Below are positions 53,511 through 64,000 of a DNA stretch of 64,000 nucleotides, piece after piece. The notes beneath the pieces were generated by a model. It was given only the letters and a program-made list of their open reading frames with translations, was not told the origin of the DNA and did not search any database. A program made the position numbers and the translations under genes. The DNA lies in NCBI RefSeq assembly GCF_028736115.1, contig NZ_CP117877.1, positions 620,001 through 684,000 on the forward strand, written 5' to 3'. Each line of letters starts with the position of its first letter. Within the stretch, counting starts at the first letter, position 1. Source of the DNA: Mucilaginibacter sp. KACC 22063 (lineage in GTDB: Bacteria; Bacteroidota; Bacteroidia; Sphingobacteriales; Sphingobacteriaceae).

Positions 53511-53549
53511 ACCTGCATAAGAAAGTACTATGACTTTCTGTATGCAGGT
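53511..53549 (-). terminator. Intrinsic terminator at the end of the lanthipeptide operon
   Basis: Long hairpin with arms ACCTGCATAAGAAAGT and ACTTTCT-G-TATGCAGGT (16 paired bases, one bulged G, six-base loop), followed on the minus strand by TTTTTATTTAAAAACC. It lies 38 bases past the receiver-protein stop. Confidence 0.9.
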
Positions 53550-53587: not shown

Positions 53588-53962
53588 TTAGTAGGATATT
53601 TTACTTAATGCTTCATGAACTACATTTTCAAATATTTGATAAGAAAACGGCTTGTTTAATACGGCTACATATTTTATTCCTAAGCTTTTAATATAAACCT
53701 CTGTATGTGCAGTAGTAATAATGATATTTCCGTATTGACTGATACATTGGTCAATTTCTGCAACATTTGATAAGGGGCTATCCAAAAGGTCAAGAAATAC
53801 GATATCAACTTTACAATGCGATTTAGCTGATAAGTTTTTTGAAGAAGTTTCTCTCCATAATACTTTAAGAGTATCTGCCCGCCGAATAAATTTACTAAGC
53901 AGTTCATACGCCAGCTCTTCATCTTCAACAATTCCGCATGTATAAACAGCTGCATTTGCCAT
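53588..53962 (-). CDS. Stand-alone response-regulator receiver protein
   Basis: 124-aa protein consisting only of a CheY-like receiver domain. The acidic pair VEDE is at residues 12-15, the phospho-acceptor Asp58 lies in IVFLDLLDS, the Thr switch in IITTAHTEVY, and Lys104 in LNKPFS. It resembles the receiver half of the LytTR regulator upstream, but the LytTR DNA-binding half is missing. ATG 53960-53962 is used, not the TTG one codon earlier. It starts 32 bp after the precursor peptide gene and is the last gene before the terminator. It may act as a phosphate sink or partner for the adjacent kinase (inference). Confidence 0.85.
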   Translation of the reverse strand: MANAAVYTCGIVEDEELAYELLSKFIRRADTLKVLWRETSSKNLSAKSHCKVDIVFLDLLDSPLSNVAEIDQCISQYGNIIITTAHTEVYIKSLGIKYVAVLNKPFSYQIFENVVHEALSKISY

Positions 53963-53994: not shown

Positions 53995-54159
53995 TTAATT
54001 TCTTTCTGCCAATCTGGCCAGGCTAAAGCAAAGTTGTGATGTTGTAGGAAATGTGCCGGTAGGAAAGTCCATACCATCTGCATTATTTACAGATAACCTT
54101 GACACTGTTTCTTTCTTTAATTTAAGTAATGATTTTGGGTTAGGGTTTAAGGTTTTCAT
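53995..54159 (-). CDS. Class I lanthipeptide-type precursor peptide (54 aa)
   Basis: Short gene between the LytTR regulator and the receiver gene. The leader contains LLKLKKETVSRLS (residues 11-23), matching the L-K-L-x-K-E-T-I-x-x-L leader motif of Bacteroidota class I lanthipeptides. The core-like part has six Thr/Ser (34, 36, 39, 40, 41, 46) and a single Cys44 in TTSQLCFS, suitable for one (methyl)lanthionine ring plus further dehydrated residues. There is no Gly-Gly; the best cleavage candidate is after Gly29 (NNADG). An A-rich ribosome site (CCAAAAACAAAAGAC) precedes the ATG. Context: two LanC-like genes, an LLM oxidoreductase and a C39 exporter upstream on the same strand. The product's activity is unknown. 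Confidence 0.85.
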   Translation of the reverse strand: MKTLNPNPKSLLKLKKETVSRLSVNNADGMDFPTGTFPTTSQLCFSLARLAERN

Positions 54160-54215
54160 GTCTTTTGTTTTTGGTTTATTAAAAGAACAAAAACATGATT
54201 ATCGTCACAATTTAA

Positions 54216-54250
54216 TTCGACCAATTAAAGTCAAATTTCGACCAATTAAA
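54216..54250 (-). promoter_or_regulatory. Direct repeats, likely LytTR regulator binding site
   Basis: TTCGACCAATTAAA (plus strand) occurs exactly at 54216-54229 and 54237-54250, a 21-bp period, that is two helical turns. LytTR regulators such as AgrA and ComE bind pairs of short direct repeats with about this period. A TGTTTTTG element (minus strand, 54188-54195), one base off TAnnTTTG, lies about 20 bases downstream, placing the repeats near -32 to -66 of the precursor promoter. Confidence 0.75.
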
Positions 54251-54264
54251 TACTGAGCAGCTGT

Positions 54265-55038
54265 TTATAAGGCTCCGCCTTCTGCAAGGCCCTTTATAGC
54301 TTCGCGGTACCTGATACCAATGGGCACTTCTTCATTGGTTATCAGCTCTATGGTATTGCCGTTGATAGATTTTACAGATGATTTTCTGACAATGAATGAT
54401 CTGTTTACCCTTAGAAATTCTCTCTGAGGTAACATCTCTTCTATTTTAGTCATGGTCATGTGGGTTATAAGCACTTTTGATGAGGTATGTATCTTCAGGT
54501 AATCCTTCATACCCTCAACAAAATGGATTTCATCTATAGAAACATTTACAAACTTTTTATTCTCCTTAAAAAGGATCTGCCTGTTTTTAATTTCTGCTTC
54601 GCCAGATACTGGCTTGTTTAATTCAGTAGTCAAGGCAGGGTCATTCGCAGGCAATAAATGTTCGGTGCTTCGCGCCAGTTTATCTTTAACTTTATTTATA
54701 GCTTTTACAAAACGTTCAAATGTTATTGGCTTTAAAATAAAATCAAGCACATCAAGTTCGTAACCATCAACAGCATACTCGGGATATGCAGTTGTAAGTA
54801 CAATTAAAGGTTTATAAGAACTGAAGGTTTTAATAAACTCGATACCGGTCATTTCGGGCATATTAACATCCAGAAATATAAGATCAGGTTTTAAAACAGA
54901 AACTCTTTCAATTGCATCAATTGCATTTTCACATTTGGCCAACAGGTTAAGCGATGAAATTCTGCCTATATATTTTTCAATCAGATCCTGTGCTAATGGC
55001 TCGTCATCAATTACAACACATGATATGCTACTTTCCAT
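54265..55038 (-). CDS. LytTR family response regulator
   Basis: 257-aa two-component regulator. The N-terminal receiver has the acidic pair DDE, phospho-acceptor Asp57 in LIFLDVNMPEMTG, and Lys in FILKPITFERF. The C-terminal LytTR domain (about 155-255) has EIHFVEGMKDYLKIHTSSK and REFLRVNRSFIVRKSSVKSI, the family's DNA-binding core. ATG 55036-55038 is chosen; it lies two bases after the kinase stop. Paired with the LytS-type kinase, it presumably activates the precursor gene directly downstream through the direct repeats at 54216-54250. Confidence 0.95.
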   Translation of the reverse strand: MESSISCVVIDDEPLAQDLIEKYIGRISSLNLLAKCENAIDAIERVSVLKPDLIFLDVNMPEMTGIEFIKTFSSYKPLIVLTTAYPEYAVDGYELDVLDFILKPITFERFVKAINKVKDKLARSTEHLLPANDPALTTELNKPVSGEAEIKNRQILFKENKKFVNVSIDEIHFVEGMKDYLKIHTSSKVLITHMTMTKIEEMLPQREFLRVNRSFIVRKSSVKSINGNTIELITNEEVPIGIRYREAIKGLAEGGAL

Positions 55039-55040
55039 AT

Positions 55041-56150
55041 TTACCAAATTTTCAACAGTACGTTATATATTTTCTCATCTTCTGATATTTCAAGCGTATG
55101 GCGGTTGGGGTATAGTAAGTCCAACCTTCTCCTGGTATTAGATACACCAATACCCCCTACTGACTTTCTTAAATTAGCTGCTGGCTTTAGATTAGTTACT
55201 TCAAAACAAAATGCTTTTGTATCATCTATCCATGCATTAATCTTAATCCACGAATCTTTTACCATTTTATCAACGCCATGCTTAAAGGCATTTTCAACAA
55301 AATTGATCAGCAATAACGAAGGTACTTTAACCACATCCAGATCATCGGCTATATTTAATTCTATTGACAGCCTGTTACTGTGCCTGATGTTCTGGATATC
55401 AATATAGTTTTTTATGAAATACAATTCTTTACTGGCATCAATTTCCGAGGCATTTGAATCATAAAGTGCATAACGCATCATACTTGAAAGCGCAAAGACC
55501 ATTGATGCAGCTGTTTCGTCCTTGTCTTCAATTAAAGAATATACGCTGTTTAGTGTATTAAACAAAAAGTGCGGATTAATCTGCGAGCGCAAAAAATTGA
55601 GTTCGAGCGTAAGATTATCCTTTTCAAGTTTAAGCTTCTCTAACCTCGATTTAAAAGCAACCCTGAATATTTTAATCGTTAAAGCTGGAAATAAAGCTAA
55701 GCCCAGCTGCTCGAAATGAAAATATAATACATTGTAATCTTTTACAAATGTCCAGGCACCATATTGCGATATGTTTTTTACAAACCGCCGGTAATAGGGA
55801 GGCATATCCTGTGTGTGGTTGATATAATTATATAGGTAATATGCGCTTATACCATATATAGTTAGTGTAAATAGGAGTATCAGGCTTACATAAAAAGCTG
55901 TATGAATGGCATCCTGCTTAGTTTTTAAGGCAAATGAAACGCCATAAAAGCAGGCTAATATGATGATGTACTTTTGTAATCCGATGAGGTATGTAGCAGT
56001 AGGGTGGCTATCGCCCGTGACCCATTGCGCCTGAAACAGAAACCATTTAAAAATGAGCAACCAAAACGCAATATGAATTATAACGGTAGTGGAACGGCGG
56101 CTGTTTGTGCCAGAAAGTATTGCTGTGATTTGGTTAGTTTGTTTTGACAT
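55041..56150 (-). CDS. LytS-type sensor histidine kinase
   Basis: 369-aa membrane kinase of the His_kinase (PF06580) family. About four hydrophobic segments lie in residues 20-165, without a large extracellular domain, as in peptide- or quorum-sensing kinases. The phospho-acceptor His194 is in LRSQINPHFLFNTLNS. The ATP-binding N-box reads LLINFVENAFKHGV, and the G-box KSVGGIGVSNTRRRLDLLYP. It sits between the exporter and the LytTR regulator genes. It may sense the secreted lanthipeptide or a cell-envelope signal (inference). Confidence 0.94.
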   Translation of the reverse strand: MSKQTNQITAILSGTNSRRSTTVIIHIAFWLLIFKWFLFQAQWVTGDSHPTATYLIGLQKYIIILACFYGVSFALKTKQDAIHTAFYVSLILLFTLTIYGISAYYLYNYINHTQDMPPYYRRFVKNISQYGAWTFVKDYNVLYFHFEQLGLALFPALTIKIFRVAFKSRLEKLKLEKDNLTLELNFLRSQINPHFLFNTLNSVYSLIEDKDETAASMVFALSSMMRYALYDSNASEIDASKELYFIKNYIDIQNIRHSNRLSIELNIADDLDVVKVPSLLLINFVENAFKHGVDKMVKDSWIKINAWIDDTKAFCFEVTNLKPAANLRKSVGGIGVSNTRRRLDLLYPNRHTLEISEDEKIYNVLLKIW

Positions 56151-56237: not shown

Positions 56238-58427
56238 TTAGTTACCAAGTTCAAGCTGGTTTTTTATAAGCTCATAATAAAATCCGCGGGTATTTACCAG
56301 GTCTTCATGTTTTCCCTGCTCAACAATCTGCCCGGATTTTAAAACAATGATCTGATCGGCATTTTTAACCGTGCTTAGCCTGTGCGCTACCACCACCACC
56401 GTACGCCCTTTAAAGGCCTGGTTAAGATTATGCATGATTTTCGTTTCATTATTTGCATCAAGAGCATTGGTGGCTTCATCAAAAAACATATAATGAGGAT
56501 CCTTATATATAGCCCTTGCAATAAGTATGCGCTGTTTTTGGCCCTGGCTTAGCCCATTGCCTTCTGCACCGATCTTTGTATTTAACCCCAGCGGCGATTG
56601 TTTAATAAACTGGTCGATATTAGCAGTTTTTATGGCGTGTAACAGGTTGGCCGAGTTAAATATCTCGTTACTCACCATGATATTGTTAGCAATAGTATCT
56701 GAAAATATAAACCCATCTTGCATTACCACTCCGCATTCTTTTCTTAAGGCCGCATGTGATATGGTGCTATAATCTGTTTCGCCCATTTGCAATGTGCCAC
56801 TATCAGGGTTATATATTTTTAATAATAATTTCAGAATAGTTGTTTTACCGCTGCCACTGTCGCCAACAATAGCAGTTATTTTTCCTTCGGGAATATATAA
56901 ATCAATACCTTTTAATACCGGATGGTTACCAGCCCCCGGATAAGTAAACGTAATGTTGCTTAAACGGATAGACTTGTCAGGAGGGAGGCGCTTAATAAAC
57001 TGCCGGTCATCTGGCTCTTCATCTGATACTTCATGCACATCATTCAGACGGTCGACACTTATTTTTGCATCCTGCGCACTTTGTAAAAACTGTATAAACT
57101 GTTCAACCGGCGAATTTAACTGGCCAACAATAAATTGTATGGCCAGCATGGAACCAAGTGTCAGGTTTCCGGAAATTACCAGCTTGGCAGCTAAAAATAC
57201 AATAAGGATATTTTTAGTTTGATTGATAAATACTGCACCCACTTGCTGGTACTGGCTTAGTGATAAGCTTTTGGTGTTAAATTTAAACAGCTGAGCCTGT
57301 ATACGCTCCCATTCCCAAAGCTTTTGTGTTCCGCAATCATTCATTTTAATTTCATGGATACCACTCATTAACTGAATAATATTATTTTGATTGGCTGCAG
57401 ATATTTCAAACCGCTTATAATCTAATTTCTTGCGGAATTTAAGAAAGAGATAAACCCATGTAAAATAGGTTAAGCTCCCCCCTAAGAAAATCAAAAAGAT
57501 ACTTTGACTATAAGATACCAGCACTGATCCGAATACAATGAGCGTTATAAATGAGAAAACAGTATTAAGGAACGTACTTGTTAAAAATGTTTCTACTCTT
57601 TTCTGATCACTTATCCGCTGCATAATGTCACCGGTAATTTTGGTATCAAAAAATGACAGAGGTAACCTGAGCAGTTTGGTTAAAAAATCTGAAAGAATGG
57701 AAATACTGATACGCGTACTAATGTGAAGTAATATCCATCCGCGTATCAGCTCAATGGTAGTTTGCCCGAGCGAAAGCATCAACTGCCCCAGCAATATCAT
57801 ATTTATGAAATTGATATTGTTGTTATTGATACCTATATCAACAATTGACTGTGTTAAAAACGGAAATATCGTTTGCAGCAGGGCTGCTGCTAAAAGACCA
57901 ATCAGTAATTGTATAAACAGTTTTTTATAGCCTCTGAGATACCTCAGTATTTTTGTCGCTTTAATAGAGGTGTCCTGCTCCTCTTCTTCGGTATAAAAAT
58001 TTGGGGTAGGCTCAATCAATAATACTATACCATCCTGCTTTTTTTCAGCAGCATTAAATGCCCATTTTTGCAGAAACTCTTTTTTGGGATAAGAAAGCAA
58101 CGACTTGCCCGGGTCTGCTACAAAAACCCTATCCTTTTTAATTTTATATACGACAATAAAGTGATTTTGGTCCCAATGGGCTATACACGGTAAATGGATA
58201 CTTTCTTTAAGATCCTCATAATTTACCCTTGCGCCAACTGTACGAAACCCGATCTGTTCAGCAGCCTGGCTTATACCCAACAAAGAAACACCGTTACGGC
58301 TATGTTTGGTTTTTTGCCGTAGTGTATCAAGGCTAAAGCGTTTTCCATAATACTTGGAGATCATCTTTAAACAAGTGGGCCCACAGTCCATTGATTCAAG
58401 CTGACGATAGTATGGGAAAGATGCCAT
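56238..58427 (-). CDS. Peptidase-containing ABC transporter (C39 exporter)
   Basis: 729-aa inner-membrane exporter that trims and secretes leader-bearing peptides. Residues 1-140 are a C39 cysteine peptidase: Cys15 in MDCGPTC, His89 in DQNHFIVV, Asp105 in VADPGKSL. A six-helix ABC membrane domain (about 165-440) follows, then the ATPase with Walker A GDSGSGKTT, signature LSQGQKQR, Walker B YMFFDEATNAL and switch His in VVVAHRLS. It is in the same operon as LanC and precursor genes, which makes it the lanthipeptide exporter. It has a normal catalytic triad, while the precursor lacks the Gly-Gly normally cut by C39 domains. Confidence 0.95.
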   Translation of the reverse strand: MASFPYYRQLESMDCGPTCLKMISKYYGKRFSLDTLRQKTKHSRNGVSLLGISQAAEQIGFRTVGARVNYEDLKESIHLPCIAHWDQNHFIVVYKIKKDRVFVADPGKSLLSYPKKEFLQKWAFNAAEKKQDGIVLLIEPTPNFYTEEEEQDTSIKATKILRYLRGYKKLFIQLLIGLLAAALLQTIFPFLTQSIVDIGINNNNINFINMILLGQLMLSLGQTTIELIRGWILLHISTRISISILSDFLTKLLRLPLSFFDTKITGDIMQRISDQKRVETFLTSTFLNTVFSFITLIVFGSVLVSYSQSIFLIFLGGSLTYFTWVYLFLKFRKKLDYKRFEISAANQNNIIQLMSGIHEIKMNDCGTQKLWEWERIQAQLFKFNTKSLSLSQYQQVGAVFINQTKNILIVFLAAKLVISGNLTLGSMLAIQFIVGQLNSPVEQFIQFLQSAQDAKISVDRLNDVHEVSDEEPDDRQFIKRLPPDKSIRLSNITFTYPGAGNHPVLKGIDLYIPEGKITAIVGDSGSGKTTILKLLLKIYNPDSGTLQMGETDYSTISHAALRKECGVVMQDGFIFSDTIANNIMVSNEIFNSANLLHAIKTANIDQFIKQSPLGLNTKIGAEGNGLSQGQKQRILIARAIYKDPHYMFFDEATNALDANNETKIMHNLNQAFKGRTVVVVAHRLSTVKNADQIIVLKSGQIVEQGKHEDLVNTRGFYYELIKNQLELGN

Positions 58428-58454: not shown

Positions 58455-59405
58455 CTAAGCTGCTGTTTGTTTTACTCTGCGCACTTTAGCAGAATCGGGC
58501 AATGAAAACTCCTGTGCTATAAGCTCAATGCCCATAAGCCTGTCTTTAGGTTCTTTTGCAGCATTCATGAAAATGATTTCATCAACACCATACTTTTCGC
58601 TGAAGGCTAAAAAGGCTTCATGAAACTGTGCAGGTGTCCCTGTAATATTATACCCGAAACCATCGCGCAGCGGGCCTACCGCTCTTTTTGCCTTAGCGGT
58701 GGTTTTGTGGCAGATACCTGAAACTACAAGATTTACTTTCGGATAACGATTGTGCTTATTATAAAATGCTTCTTTAAACTCCGCTAATTTATCCTTGTGA
58801 GCCTCCATGTCAGCATTGGTATGAAAGATGGACCTTGAAAGATTAGTGCCATGCTCCAAAGCTCTATCGATGCTCTTACCCATACCTGTACTTAGCGACC
58901 AAACGTCTGGGTTAACGCCTTTATATGGTGACACAACTGTGCCTATTTGAAGAACTTCACTTTCGTTATTAATGATATAGAAAAATTTATCCAGATTGTT
59001 TTTGAAGGCTTCGGGCATATTCAGCCCTTCTATGCCTGTAGCCAATTGAGCGACGGACGACATTACTCCGCCATTTGCCAAGCCAAGATCAATGCGGTTA
59101 GGAAACAGGTTGGTAAGCATTTTAAAGTTACATGCTACGTGATATGGCTGATGTATACTTAATAATATTCCAGCCGTGCCTATACGTATCTTTGATGTCA
59201 TGGAAGCAAGTATAGGTATCAATATAGTAGGGTCATTCCAGGTATGGGTAGGGTCGGGGATGTGATGCTCGCCCAGCCAAAACCTTGAATAGCCCAACTC
59301 ATCTGCCTGATAGGCATAATTAATCAAATCATTAACTTTTAAAAGGCTGTTAAGCTTTGCGGTTCTGATACCAAAATCAATTAACCCTATTTTTAGCTTT
59401 TCCAT
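58455..59405 (-). CDS. Luciferase-like (LLM class) flavin-dependent oxidoreductase
   Basis: 316-aa TIM-barrel flavoprotein. YSRFWLGEHHIPDPTHTW near residue 39, SKIRIGTAGILLSIHQPYHV near 70 and RIDLGLANGG near 103 are classic bacterial luciferase-like motifs, and later NVVVSGIC/TPAQFHEAFLAFSEKYG-like segments complete the fold. In actinobacterial lanthipeptide loci an F420-dependent member of this superfamily (LanJC) reduces dehydroalanine to D-alanine. Bacteroidota lack F420, so an FMN-dependent counterpart acting on the modified peptide is a reasonable guess. It lies 27 bp from the exporter and 17 bp from LanC, firmly inside the operon. Confidence 0.9.
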   Translation of the reverse strand: MEKLKIGLIDFGIRTAKLNSLLKVNDLINYAYQADELGYSRFWLGEHHIPDPTHTWNDPTILIPILASMTSKIRIGTAGILLSIHQPYHVACNFKMLTNLFPNRIDLGLANGGVMSSVAQLATGIEGLNMPEAFKNNLDKFFYIINNESEVLQIGTVVSPYKGVNPDVWSLSTGMGKSIDRALEHGTNLSRSIFHTNADMEAHKDKLAEFKEAFYNKHNRYPKVNLVVSGICHKTTAKAKRAVGPLRDGFGYNITGTPAQFHEAFLAFSEKYGVDEIIFMNAAKEPKDRLMGIELIAQEFSLPDSAKVRRVKQTAA

Positions 59406-59422: not shown

Positions 59423-60634
59423 TTACATTAAGAATATGCTTTGCCATTTCTGATTCCCTCCAAGCGCTTCATTAATCAGCACCAGCATTACACCAGGTAT
59501 ACCCATTAATAATTGCTCGGCACGCCCGTTACTTTCAGGATCTTTTAGTTCGTTCTGTATGTAATTATGGGTATATTCCATCCAGAAGTTTTTAGTATCC
59601 ATATATTCAGGCAAGGGCTGTTCACGGTAAAGTGCGTTATACATTAATACCATACTTGCCGATCCGTGGCATAAATGGGCATTCTCTATGCCTGATTCTT
59701 CTTCTGTAAGGCGTGTACAGGTATCCCTGCCTAACGTATCTGCTTTAATAAGCAGTTCAGGCATATTAAGAACATCTGCACAACGGTAAAACACTAATGC
59801 AATATTTAAGTCGCCATAGCACCAGCCCATCCTGTCATTATATTTTTTGATGTTCTCGGGGGCTGTTCTGGCAAAGTTTTCATCAATGGTTACAGGGAAG
59901 TAAGAATATACGCCATCGGCCCTTTCGGGCTTACGTTCTAAACCAAGTATATACTTAAGCATACCGATTATCAGTCCGCGTATTTCCGGTTGTAAAATGC
60001 CTGCTTTGTAAATATCCAGCAATACCAGTATCAGGCCGCTTTGCCCATGTGCAACTCCAAGATCAATATCTGCTGAGCGGTTTTGCTTGGAGATGTGTGA
60101 ATTGAAGAACCTGACCCCATGTTCATCCTCCATCTTTAAAAGCATTAAGCTTTCAAAAGCATCCGTTATGTAATCTTTTATTTTGCCATTATAATCAATA
60201 CGGTTTACCAGATAACTTAAGGCACCAGCAGCACCATATAAAAAATCAATATTATTATTTGCCAAATAAGTTTTAGCGCTCTTATATACCATCTCGTCGA
60301 AAACAAAAAACTCATCATCCTGCAATTCTATATCTATGATATTATCCTGATTTAAGGTCATTATAACCCTGCACAAAGAGGGGAGTACCCATGGTATTTC
60401 AAGTATCGCCTCGGGTGAGCCGCTTTTAAAATAGTCGAACAATTCATCAAGATAGGTGACCGCAGTTTCAATATTTTCTTCATTCCCAAGCAGCTTATAA
60501 TTATATGCCAGGTATAGAATACGCCCCAACTTGCCCGAAAACAACGAATTGCCTTTGAACGGCAATGACGCAATTACATGCTCGCCTGTTTTAATCTGCT
60601 CTATAAGCTTGCTTTCAATTTGTTCTTCAATCAT
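59423..60634 (-). CDS. LanC-type lanthionine cyclase
   Basis: 403-aa zinc enzyme of the LanC family that adds Cys thiols to dehydrated Ser/Thr to close lanthionine rings. All known key residues are visible: His196 in GVAHGQSG (general acid/base), Cys272 in WCYGDLN, and Cys322-His323 in LCHGSAS (zinc ligands). The alpha/alpha-barrel repeats are recognisable throughout. It starts 13 bp after a second LanC-like gene and is followed by the LLM oxidoreductase. This should be the active cyclase of the locus. Confidence 0.93.
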   Translation of the reverse strand: MIEEQIESKLIEQIKTGEHVIASLPFKGNSLFSGKLGRILYLAYNYKLLGNEENIETAVTYLDELFDYFKSGSPEAILEIPWVLPSLCRVIMTLNQDNIIDIELQDDEFFVFDEMVYKSAKTYLANNNIDFLYGAAGALSYLVNRIDYNGKIKDYITDAFESLMLLKMEDEHGVRFFNSHISKQNRSADIDLGVAHGQSGLILVLLDIYKAGILQPEIRGLIIGMLKYILGLERKPERADGVYSYFPVTIDENFARTAPENIKKYNDRMGWCYGDLNIALVFYRCADVLNMPELLIKADTLGRDTCTRLTEEESGIENAHLCHGSASMVLMYNALYREQPLPEYMDTKNFWMEYTHNYIQNELKDPESNGRAEQLLMGIPGVMLVLINEALGGNQKWQSIFLM

Positions 60635-60647
60635 GATGGTTTAGTTT

Positions 60648-61865
60648 TTAATAGCCGATAAATTTGATCAGATCTTTTGTGCCTGCCTGTAATGCCATCA
60701 GGCTAAGCCCAAGCCCTGACAGGCCTTCATAAAGCGTAAAGTTTACATGTGGGTTACCCTGGTTGTAGTAACCCGAATAACCGGCAGGTTTTCCGGGCTG
60801 CTGTAGCTGTACCTGCATTACCGAATACCAATAATCTGCAGCAATGGCGAAATCTTCAAGCTGATATTCCTGATACAAGTTGCTAAACAGGGTAATAAGG
60901 CCCGATGTCCCGTAAATAACAGAAGCATCATGTATGTTACAGGTTGATAAAGACCGCCTTAAAGCCGAGTGACGTAGGCTGTTTAAACCTTGTTCATATA
61001 AAAGCTCATTATTTAAACTTTTTCCTGCTTTTAAAAGCGCATAACCAATACCCAGGTCGCCATAGCATAAGTTTAGCGGGCTATTGGCTTTTTCTTCACC
61101 AACAATGTCTGGAAAACAGCTATCGCTTTTTTCATTTTTATGATCAATAAGATACTGGCAGGCTGCATTTATGCAATCCTTTATTTCAGTTATTCTGTAA
61201 TCTGAATTACTATCAACAATTTCTGTCAGCAGCAGAATTACGGAGGCCACACCGTGGCTCCATCCCAGGTATATATTGCTTTTATTAAAAAGTTTCGACA
61301 CCCAATAGGTGCTGCCACTGCCGGTATGCTGAGCAGAGCTTAATAAGGTATCGATAATGTGCTGAATAGCCTCCCTTACTTCGGTATATGCTGAACTATT
61401 GCGTTGCAGGAAATAGTAGGCAAGTGTAAGGAAACCTGTAAATCTGTCGAAATTTTGTTCAGCACATAATTTATTTGCACCATTGATTGCCTTTAAATCA
61501 ATTTGCCTGAGCACTTCATCAAAGCTATGGTCCAGGAACCCTTCATTTTGAAGATGTGTAATAAACATCCCTAATTCAGCAATATCATTGTAGTATAAAG
61601 CGCCGTTTATTTTATGTGCATACAGATCTTTTATAGCCCCAAGCAGGATACTTTCGCATAGGTTGATGTATTTAGGGTCTTCATTTACCCATGTAGCATA
61701 ATTATAAAAGAACAGTGCTGCGCCGCATTTGCCATTAGTAACTCCGGGTGATAAAGGAAGTGCAGTAATATGATCTTCAAGATATGAAGCAATTTCATGC
61801 AGCTTGTCAATATCAGCACCTGTTACCAGAAGTGCTGTTTCACTATTTAATTCTACTTTGCTCAT
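60648..61865 (-). CDS. LanC-like protein lacking two zinc ligands
   Basis: 405-aa LanC-family protein. ATG 61863-61865, directly after AGGAG, is preferred to an earlier in-frame start; it overlaps the end of the receptor gene by 23 bp. His204 in GWSHGVAS and Cys267 in LCYGDLG are kept, but where LanC has Cys-His-Gly this protein reads Ile317-Tyr318-Gly319 (ASVIYGTSG). With two of three zinc ligands gone it should not bind catalytic zinc in the usual way. It may be a pseudo-enzyme that helps its active neighbour, or have another activity. It diverges widely from its neighbour, so this is not a recent duplication. Confidence 0.88.
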   Translation of the reverse strand: MSKVELNSETALLVTGADIDKLHEIASYLEDHITALPLSPGVTNGKCGAALFFYNYATWVNEDPKYINLCESILLGAIKDLYAHKINGALYYNDIAELGMFITHLQNEGFLDHSFDEVLRQIDLKAINGANKLCAEQNFDRFTGFLTLAYYFLQRNSSAYTEVREAIQHIIDTLLSSAQHTGSGSTYWVSKLFNKSNIYLGWSHGVASVILLLTEIVDSNSDYRITEIKDCINAACQYLIDHKNEKSDSCFPDIVGEEKANSPLNLCYGDLGIGYALLKAGKSLNNELLYEQGLNSLRHSALRRSLSTCNIHDASVIYGTSGLITLFSNLYQEYQLEDFAIAADYWYSVMQVQLQQPGKPAGYSGYYNQGNPHVNFTLYEGLSGLGLSLMALQAGTKDLIKFIGY

Positions 61866-64000
61866 CTCCTGCTGAATTTTTGTTTGATGGTTTAATTTTT
61901 TTAGATCCAAAGGGATAGCTGATTGAAAACTGTAAAAAATTTGAATCCCAACGGTATACGTCACGCGTTATAAGGTCTGGAAGCACTGCCACTGATTTTG
62001 CACGTGCCGATTTAAATACGTCATTGTAGGTAAGCCTTAATGTTGGGCCTTTGTCAAAACTTTTTTGCAGGCCTAAAGTAACCTGATACTGCGGACTGTA
62101 ATGATAGATACCACTTGGCATTGACGATTGGAAATAACCAGATAATTGCGGCTGCCAATGATCAGGAAGTTTGAAATAATTACTGATACCATATACACCG
62201 TAAAAACCCGAATTGGTTATCTGGCTCACATCATTTTTCTGGTACTCGAGGTGAGATATATTAATGTTGTTATAAATAGAAAGCCATTTAGCTACTTCTA
62301 TAGGTATGGTGAAATTTATATAATACTGGTATAAGTTTTTAAGGTTCTGGGCACTGATACGTGTTATGCGCGAATCATCTGTTTCCCTTTGCGTAACATA
62401 ATTGATGGTGCTTGATGTAACAGAATAACCGGCTGAGGCTACGTAAGTATTCTTTAAAGTGTATGTAAGGTCTATTGTATTTGTGTATTCTGGTTTAAGA
62501 AATGGATTTCCCTGGCTGTAGGTATAGATATCCATGAAGTATATGAACGGGTTAAGATCCTGATAGCTGGGGCGGTTGATCCTGCGGCTGTACGATAAAT
62601 TAAGTGAGTTATCTTTATTAATGTCCTTGCTAAGTATCAGCGAAGGGAACAGATTAAAATACTGGCGTTTTACAACATTTTGTGTAGTGACCAGGTTACC
62701 GTCAGAATTTGTCAGCTCGCCACGTAGGCCAAGCTTATATTCGTAAGTGCCTAACTTGTTGCTGTAAACAGCATAGCCTGCACTTATTGATTCTTTATAT
62801 TTAAAATAATTACTTCTTGTAGGGTCATTAACCCATTGATTGTTGTTAAAAAGCTCGTATTGTGCATTATTGTCTGTATTAACCGTACTGAATTTCAATC
62901 CGGCTTCCAGTTTGCCTTTACCTAATGATTGTTCGTAATCTGTTTTAGCCACCCAGATATTGATTTTTGTAGGCAGGTTGTTACGCAGATCAAGCCCACC
63001 GATGGGGACGGCACTTCCGGGAATAGTGTACGTGTTCTCAATATTGTTAAACTGCGAAGAGTTGTAAGCAGAGTAGTTAACCTCAGCAGTGATGATCTTA
63101 GTAGAATCAATACTGTGTTTAAAACTTAAATTACCGCTGTATTGATGCTTATTGTCTTTAGTAAATGTATTATTGTTCAGCACAGAATCGACAACATTAG
63201 CTGCCTGCAAAATATTTGTGTTACTATACGCATACAGGTTCTTTTTAAAATTGAAGCCGGTAAATAAGATATTGAAAGCTGTTTTAGGCGATGCATTAAA
63301 ATCAAGCCCTACACGATAATTATGTGCATATGTTTTATATGGGCTGTAGGTGTATGAATTATGGATATTGGTAACCTCATTAGCATTTTGAGGATTCAAA
63401 TAATCAAGTTCAAGCTGCTCTTTTGACCTGGAGTTGCGATAAGAGAAATTGTAACCTCCATATATAATTACTTTGCCGCTTTTGTGATTAATGCTGAAGC
63501 CCTCATTGGTTCTTTTTGATTGACCCACTGCAACACCTGCATTAATGGTACCAGTAGTACCATCGAGGCTGGCCTTTTTTGTAATGATGTTGATAATACC
63601 GCCGCCGCCCTGGGCATCGTACTTTGCACCGGGATTAGATATTATTTCAATTTTGTCAATGGTATTGCTTTGAAAGCTTTTTAGAAAGGCCGCCAGATCT
63701 GAGCCTGCAAGGTAAGTTTTCTTGCCGTCTACCATTACTGTAGTACCCTGCTTGCCGTTTAATGAAATGCTTTCACTTTGAGGGTTAACATATATGCCTG
63801 GCGCTTTTTCAAGCAATTGTATGGCATCATAACCACTACCAAACACGGTATTACTAATATTAAATACAATGCGGTCGCTTTTTGCTTCTATTAATGGCCT
63901 TTTACCTGATATCACCACACCTGCAAGTGCTTTTACACTTGCATTAAGTTTTATATCAATATTTAAAGTTTCGCCTTGCTGCAAGGCTATGTTTTTGAAT
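61843..64000 (-). CDS. TonB-dependent receptor-like outer-membrane beta-barrel (5' end missing)
   Basis: About 718 residues seen; the frame is open at the right edge. The first part (VVISGKRPLIEAKSDRIVFN; YDAIQLLEKAPGIYVNPQ; QSNTIDKIEIISNPGAKYDA; GGGGIINIITKK) is the plug domain, preceded by the end of a carboxypeptidase-D-like domain. The rest is a 'outer membrane protein beta-barrel' (OMP_b-brl_3) region. It ends in charged KKIKPSNKN rather than the usual terminal aromatic residue. As the first visible gene of the lanthipeptide operon and overlapping LanC-like by 23 bp, it may import or pass the product across the outer membrane, or serve in immunity (inference). Confidence 0.9.
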   Translation of the reverse strand, partial: FKNIALQQGETLNIDIKLNASVKALAGVVISGKRPLIEAKSDRIVFNISNTVFGSGYDAIQLLEKAPGIYVNPQSESISLNGKQGTTVMVDGKKTYLAGSDLAAFLKSFQSNTIDKIEIISNPGAKYDAQGGGGIINIITKKASLDGTTGTINAGVAVGQSKRTNEGFSINHKSGKVIIYGGYNFSYRNSRSKEQLELDYLNPQNANEVTNIHNSYTYSPYKTYAHNYRVGLDFNASPKTAFNILFTGFNFKKNLYAYSNTNILQAANVVDSVLNNNTFTKDNKHQYSGNLSFKHSIDSTKIITAEVNYSAYNSSQFNNIENTYTIPGSAVPIGGLDLRNNLPTKINIWVAKTDYEQSLGKGKLEAGLKFSTVNTDNNAQYELFNNNQWVNDPTRSNYFKYKESISAGYAVYSNKLGTYEYKLGLRGELTNSDGNLVTTQNVVKRQYFNLFPSLILSKDINKDNSLNLSYSRRINRPSYQDLNPFIYFMDIYTYSQGNPFLKPEYTNTIDLTYTLKNTYVASAGYSVTSSTINYVTQRETDDSRITRISAQNLKNLYQYYINFTIPIEVAKWLSIYNNINISHLEYQKNDVSQITNSGFYGVYGISNYFKLPDHWQPQLSGYFQSSMPSGIYHYSPQYQVTLGLQKSFDKGPTLRLTYNDVFKSARAKSVAVLPDLITRDVYRWDSNFLQFSISYPFGSKKIKPSNKNSAGDEQSRIK

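Follow-up and report, generated by a model that had tools for sequence, protein, structure and literature searches.

A small gene lodged between two regulator genes encodes a 54-residue peptide whose leader and core resemble those of Bacteroidota class I lanthipeptide precursors. It lies in the window analysed here, 64,000 nucleotides spanning positions 620001-684000 of a single-contig 4.8 Mb genome. With fair confidence, this is a real and conserved class I precursor gene that lacks the Gly-Gly half of its leader, is controlled by a LytTR regulator, and has its product modified by the dehydratase LanB. By computation, the gene is conserved in a sister genus, its homologues there are under selection, and it is linked both to LanB and to an upstream site shared with other transcription units. 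The product is probably an unusual modified peptide.

A truncated leader and a probable additional precursor

The frame reads from an ATG at position 54159 to 53995 on the minus strand (Table 1), and its full product is MKTLNPNPKSLLKLKKETVSRLSVNNADGMDFPTGTFPTTSQLCFSLARLAERN. The first-pass annotation had placed a 54-codon gene here, between two regulator genes, with one Cys and six Thr/Ser after the leader. Each of these points stands: the gene is borne out by homologues, selection and a promoter-type repeat, and it is flanked by a LytTR response regulator on one side and a receiver-only regulator on the other. Also supported is the proposal of a precursor gene in a class I cluster, with a leader of Bacteroidota class I type and a conserved Thr/Ser...Cys core. 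The leader half, LLKLKKETVSRL, fits LxLxKx5L (as LKLKKETVSRL), the leader motif of Bacteroidota class I precursors (PMC7268733). All six members of the family, namely the window peptide and five homologues, carry this motif together with a core of the form TT[ST]xLC[FW], and all six lack a Gly-Gly leader end. In a leader HMM comparison with 7339 six-frame open reading frames, the peptide leader outscored every non-precursor frame. The TTSQLC of the core resembles ring A of nisin, a likeness that is no test of the assignment.

The expected match to a curated leader family was obtained in part. NF038153 (NCBIfam lant_leader_L1a) was the best family match for all three members scanned, covering the first 22-24 of its 32 positions, but the scores of 12.0 bits for the window peptide and 16.3 and 14.5 bits for the other two all fall under the curated cut-off of 22 bits. 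The shortfall comes from the absence of model positions 23-32, the second leader half with its Gly-Gly site. Consistent with this, a profile comparison with canonical precursors aligns residues 1-24 only, at E 7e-5 and an hhalign probability of just 64%, which implies that the half expected for the dehydratase is kept and the exporter half is missing. Many such Bacteroidota precursors end in Gly-Gly and are accompanied by a C39 protease, Gly-Gly being common rather than universal (PMC7268733). With no Gly-Gly site of the kind that C39 exporters use, the peptide is not predicted to be a cargo of the C39 transporter encoded nearby. Other Gly-Gly-less precursor-like peptides were seen beside LanB in Chitinophaga-type loci (L075:9465-9632, L077:9549-9686, L078:9545-9679; e.g. 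MKKQSAKKLSLGKIRIANLKAQQFEDKKPTLVTGCSFRKCTPTI).

Table 1. Features of the peptide locus and its cluster (plain coordinates are window positions; prefixed ones lie past the window end)
Feature	Coordinates	Strand	Remarks
Terminator-like hairpin, then U run	53511..53549	-	-22.4 kcal/mol, z -5.8; after receiver gene
Receiver-only response regulator	53588..53962	-	No output domain; receiver Asp, Thr and Lys aligned and kept
Precursor-like peptide gene, 54 aa	53995..54159	-	Leader half and core TTSQLCF, without Gly-Gly site
Possible -7 promoter element TCTTTTA	54180..54186	-	Weak match; placed by spacing
Tandem LytTR-type site, predicted	54216..54250	-	Two perfect copies of TTTAATTGGTCGAA, period 21 bp
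LytTR response regulator	54265..55047	-	Response_reg and LytTR domains; likely start ATG 55038
Sensor histidine kinase	55041..56150	-	PF06580 type
C39 peptidase/ABC exporter	56238..58427	-	
Luciferase-like (LLM) oxidoreductase	58455..59405	-
LanC cyclase	59423..60634	-	Zinc ligand motifs WCYG, LCHG
LanC-like protein, start uncertain	60648..61964	-	Without second Cys and His of zinc site
TonB-dependent receptor	61843..63984	-	Extends past window end, start G000:C1:684266
Six canonical Gly-Gly precursors	L017:12840-14290		39.6-52.2 bits to NF038153
Complete LanB	L017:14382-17534		Full length, PF04738 and PF14028
HlyD-like membrane-fusion protein	L017:17542-18432

The peptide had also been assigned to one operon with LanC, the LLM oxidoreductase and the C39 exporter; strand and gene order agree with this, but the peptide has its own predicted promoter. 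The window genes from the TonB-dependent receptor to the LytTR regulator form one arm of a divergent cluster. The receptor gene comes first in this arm and has a tandem site 55 nt upstream of its start. The other arm lies past the window end, where six canonical Gly-Gly precursors and LanB occur at a distance of 0.8-5.5 kb, placing LanB ~12 kb from the peptide gene. Because these canonical precursors and LanB lie just outside the window, the peptide is to be regarded as an additional, atypical precursor and not as the main one of the cluster. The zinc site of LanC, Cys...Cys-His, is complete. Its LanC-like neighbour keeps one zinc Cys and has IYG in place of CHG, a form conserved beside an intact LanC in three Hymenobacter clusters (L065:8824-9969, L066:8832-9989, L067:8757-9965), which marks it as a conserved pseudo-LanC.

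These three Hymenobacter loci share the order of the window arm, with identities of 70-73% for the C39 exporter, 54-57% for the regulator and 39-47% for LanC, and two of them have LanB and canonical precursors within reach. In none of them does the small peptide follow the regulator, although locus L067 stops 277 bp past its regulator and is weak evidence of absence. A role for the peptide as a core component of this cluster type was therefore rejected. Small Cys-free peptides sharing YWW[IF][ED] were seen at L017:18618-18806 (690618-690806), L017:12563-12715 (684563-684715) and L065:5652-5882; two have a Gly-Gly leader, and one scores above the bacteriocin_sig cut-off. Both copies of the window genome, just past the window, have an upstream tandem site. 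Possibly, these are the C39-exported inducing peptide for the kinase.

Homologues at a reduced locus in a sister genus

Five genomes from a second genus in the family, which gene content and relatives suggest is the Sphingobacteriaceae, carry homologues of the peptide in the same genomic place. They were reached through the neighbouring receiver-only regulator, which led to two genomes (peptides of 49-50 aa, between the receiver-only and LytTR regulators), and then through a three-member peptide profile, which added three more. The profile matches have E values of 1e-18 or better and lie in that same place. The gene order in all five is kinase, LytTR regulator, tandem site, peptide, receiver-only regulator, with LanB adjacent to the kinase and divergent from it. 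Between the window and these relatives the LytTR regulator is 73-76% identical, and the receiver-only regulator, which follows the peptide in each, 51-53%; the search that led to the first two genomes gave 52-54% for the latter. Purifying selection acts on the five homologues: pairwise dN/dS is 0.14-0.44 (0.14-0.25 within four, 0.40-0.44 against the fifth; the window sequence was excluded for its indels). Single-sequence searches returned no homologue in 149 other genomes of the peptide's own genus and, once the frames were read, chance matches only in 395 genomes of the class. The conservation anticipated for related strains thus holds for another genus of the family, and fails for the 149 genomes of its own genus and for the Hymenobacter clusters.

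The locus in these five genomes is reduced to LanB, regulators and the peptide. Over the 17-33 kb surveyed around each, no LLM gene, C39 exporter, canonical precursor or LanC lies near the peptide, and no other precursor-like peptide lies within reach of LanB. LanC was sought genome-wide in two: one (G379) has LanC genes elsewhere, and the other (G795) has a single LanC-like protein, which is without two zinc ligands. The product there may be a linear, dehydrated peptide. The same genus also holds Gly-Gly-bearing cousins with a similar core (GG-IPVTTITRRFCC), some beside LanC. Sister-genus LanB and that of the window cluster form a group at 100/100 support, with Hymenobacter outside; the sister genus may have lost the canonical arm, but separate gains would fit as well. 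In G795, LanB is followed by a gene with a tandem site of its own (L143:11463-12566), whose putative product, an exported zinc peptidase (DUF5700, HEMHH), is a candidate leader protease; the remaining four loci showed no such gene.

A shared tandem site upstream

The two 14-bp copies of the repeat, at 54216-54229 and 54237-54250, read TTCGACCAATTAAA on the plus strand and end 57 nt upstream of the peptide ATG. A tandem LytTR-type site of the same 21-bp period lies 57-61 nt before the peptide start codon in all six genomes. LytTR regulators usually use two direct repeats of 9-11 nt, set 11-13 nt apart and ahead of the promoter (PMC4847170), and the site agrees with this rule for a LytTR regulon. 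The possible -7 element has equally spaced counterparts at the sister promoters (TATTTCG, TACTTCG, TCCTTTG and TTCTTTG), and a similar spacing recurs across the transcription units of the window cluster: site, 30 nt, -7-like heptamer, start codon. Comparable direct repeats stand upstream of small-peptide promoters in the AgrA/HdrR type of LytTR bacteriocin promoter (PMC6193735, PMC4847170). There, repeats of ~9-11 nt are separated by spacers of 11-13 nt, while the site described here, which is predicted, has a 21-bp period and differs in phylum, promoter type and repeat sequence (TTNGTCKA).

A scan with the peptide's own repeat found a second tandem site, ahead of the Gly-Gly peptide at L017:18618. 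The degenerate pattern YWNRTCKA-N13-YWNRTCKA, derived from four window-cluster sites, two of them read by eye, has 16 matches in the genome, five of which fall within the 16 kb cluster. Since the reversed control pattern has 19 matches genome-wide, it is the clustering that counts; and since the pattern came from the window cluster, only the Hymenobacter and sister-genus matches are independent. Each Hymenobacter locus has one, directly before the receptor gene, and the five sister-genus loci have 12, with at least one ahead of every peptide gene. Homologous loci contain 20 matches in 168 kb, whereas 395 kb of control loci contain none. The tandem site also stands ahead of the cluster's other transcription units and of those in the related Hymenobacter clusters. 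It offers a handle for finding more regulon members.

Proposed function and its alternatives

Regulator binding, modification, ring formation, processing, export, activity and role are what we infer from these genomes. The histidine kinase/LytTR pair would control the peptide through the upstream tandem site, as it would the rest of the cluster's transcription units. LanB would recognise the retained LxLxKx5L half of the leader and dehydrate Thr/Ser of the TT[ST]xLC core; in the window strain, whose LanC is intact, one ring could then be closed onto the lone Cys. The reduced residues put forward in the first-pass annotation are likewise conjectural. Processing by the C39 exporter is improbable, so that either another protease would act or the peptide would stay in the cell. 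Judged from sequence, the peptide is most likely expressed from a LytTR-controlled promoter of its own and serves LanB as a substrate. It is read as a precursor because leader and core are conserved, gene order is the same and dN/dS is low, and because LanB is adjacent in five relatives that have no other precursor-like peptide within reach, the LanB proteins group together and the sites are shared. Doubt attaches to this reading because the score is below the cut-off, Gly-Gly is lacking and 12 kb separate the gene from LanB in the window genome, and because the peptide is absent from the Hymenobacter clusters and the rest of its own genus and LanC from the locus in five of the six genomes. 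A tentative and on the whole doubtful elaboration is a reduced, LanB-only signalling unit, made up of LanB, kinase, LytTR regulator, Gly-Gly-less peptide and receiver-only protein, with a dehydrated peptide inside the cell. In such a unit the peptide would possibly be uncyclised and unexported, for example a feedback signal rather than a secreted antibiotic.

Conceivably, the peptide is regulatory and unmodified, a decoy in the leader pocket of LanB or an effector of the kinase, forming a feedback unit with the receiver-only regulator. A leader half kept without its export half would suit this, as would the constant neighbourhood of the receiver-only regulator under a shared site and the lack of an exporter and of LanC nearby in five genomes. 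However, TT[ST]xLC[FW], the residues on which LanB and LanC act, is as conserved as the leader, and a pure decoy would need no such core; we regard this explanation as unlikely. Less probable still, the gene is what is left of a canonical precursor gene that lost its Gly-Gly site and is decaying. The Gly-Gly-bearing cousins of the sister genus and the restriction to one genome within its own genus would be expected of a remnant, but the five homologues under purifying selection likewise lack Gly-Gly, and the promoter geometry is retained; decay could have affected the window copy alone. The empty single-sequence searches in the genus and the class sample might have suggested a chance open frame, to which we assign a negligible probability, as it is refuted by homologues matched so strongly at the same place and with dN/dS < 0.45.

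Taken as a class I precursor, the peptide shares with its Bacteroidota counterparts (NF038153) the leader motif, the Ser/Thr...Cys core and, in the window, a cluster with LanB, LanC and C39. It departs from them in lacking Gly-Gly, scoring below the cut-off, having a single Cys and sitting between regulator genes, and in its five relatives the neighbourhood holds neither LanC nor an exporter nor a Gly-Gly precursor. The Pedobacter lusitanus class I lanthipeptides (PedA15 and others; cited in PMC12328550) belong to systems of the same class and phylum. The pinensins of Chitinophaga are class I and of the same phylum; a pinensin-type precursor in L068 ends its leader in GGGG, unlike the peptide. 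A conserved class I precursor family is missed by the curated leader model, for which its scores are too low, and LanC-anchored mining (PMC7268733) would miss it in five of six genomes because no LanC is nearby. If LanB does modify the peptide, a class I dehydratase is retained in five species where the peptide is its only local partner, and the role of dehydration without LanC and a C39 exporter becomes directly testable. Elsewhere in the window genome, two further frames match the LanB N-terminal family (G000:C1:3448161-3449993 and 4596691-4598715; 991 and 907 aa).
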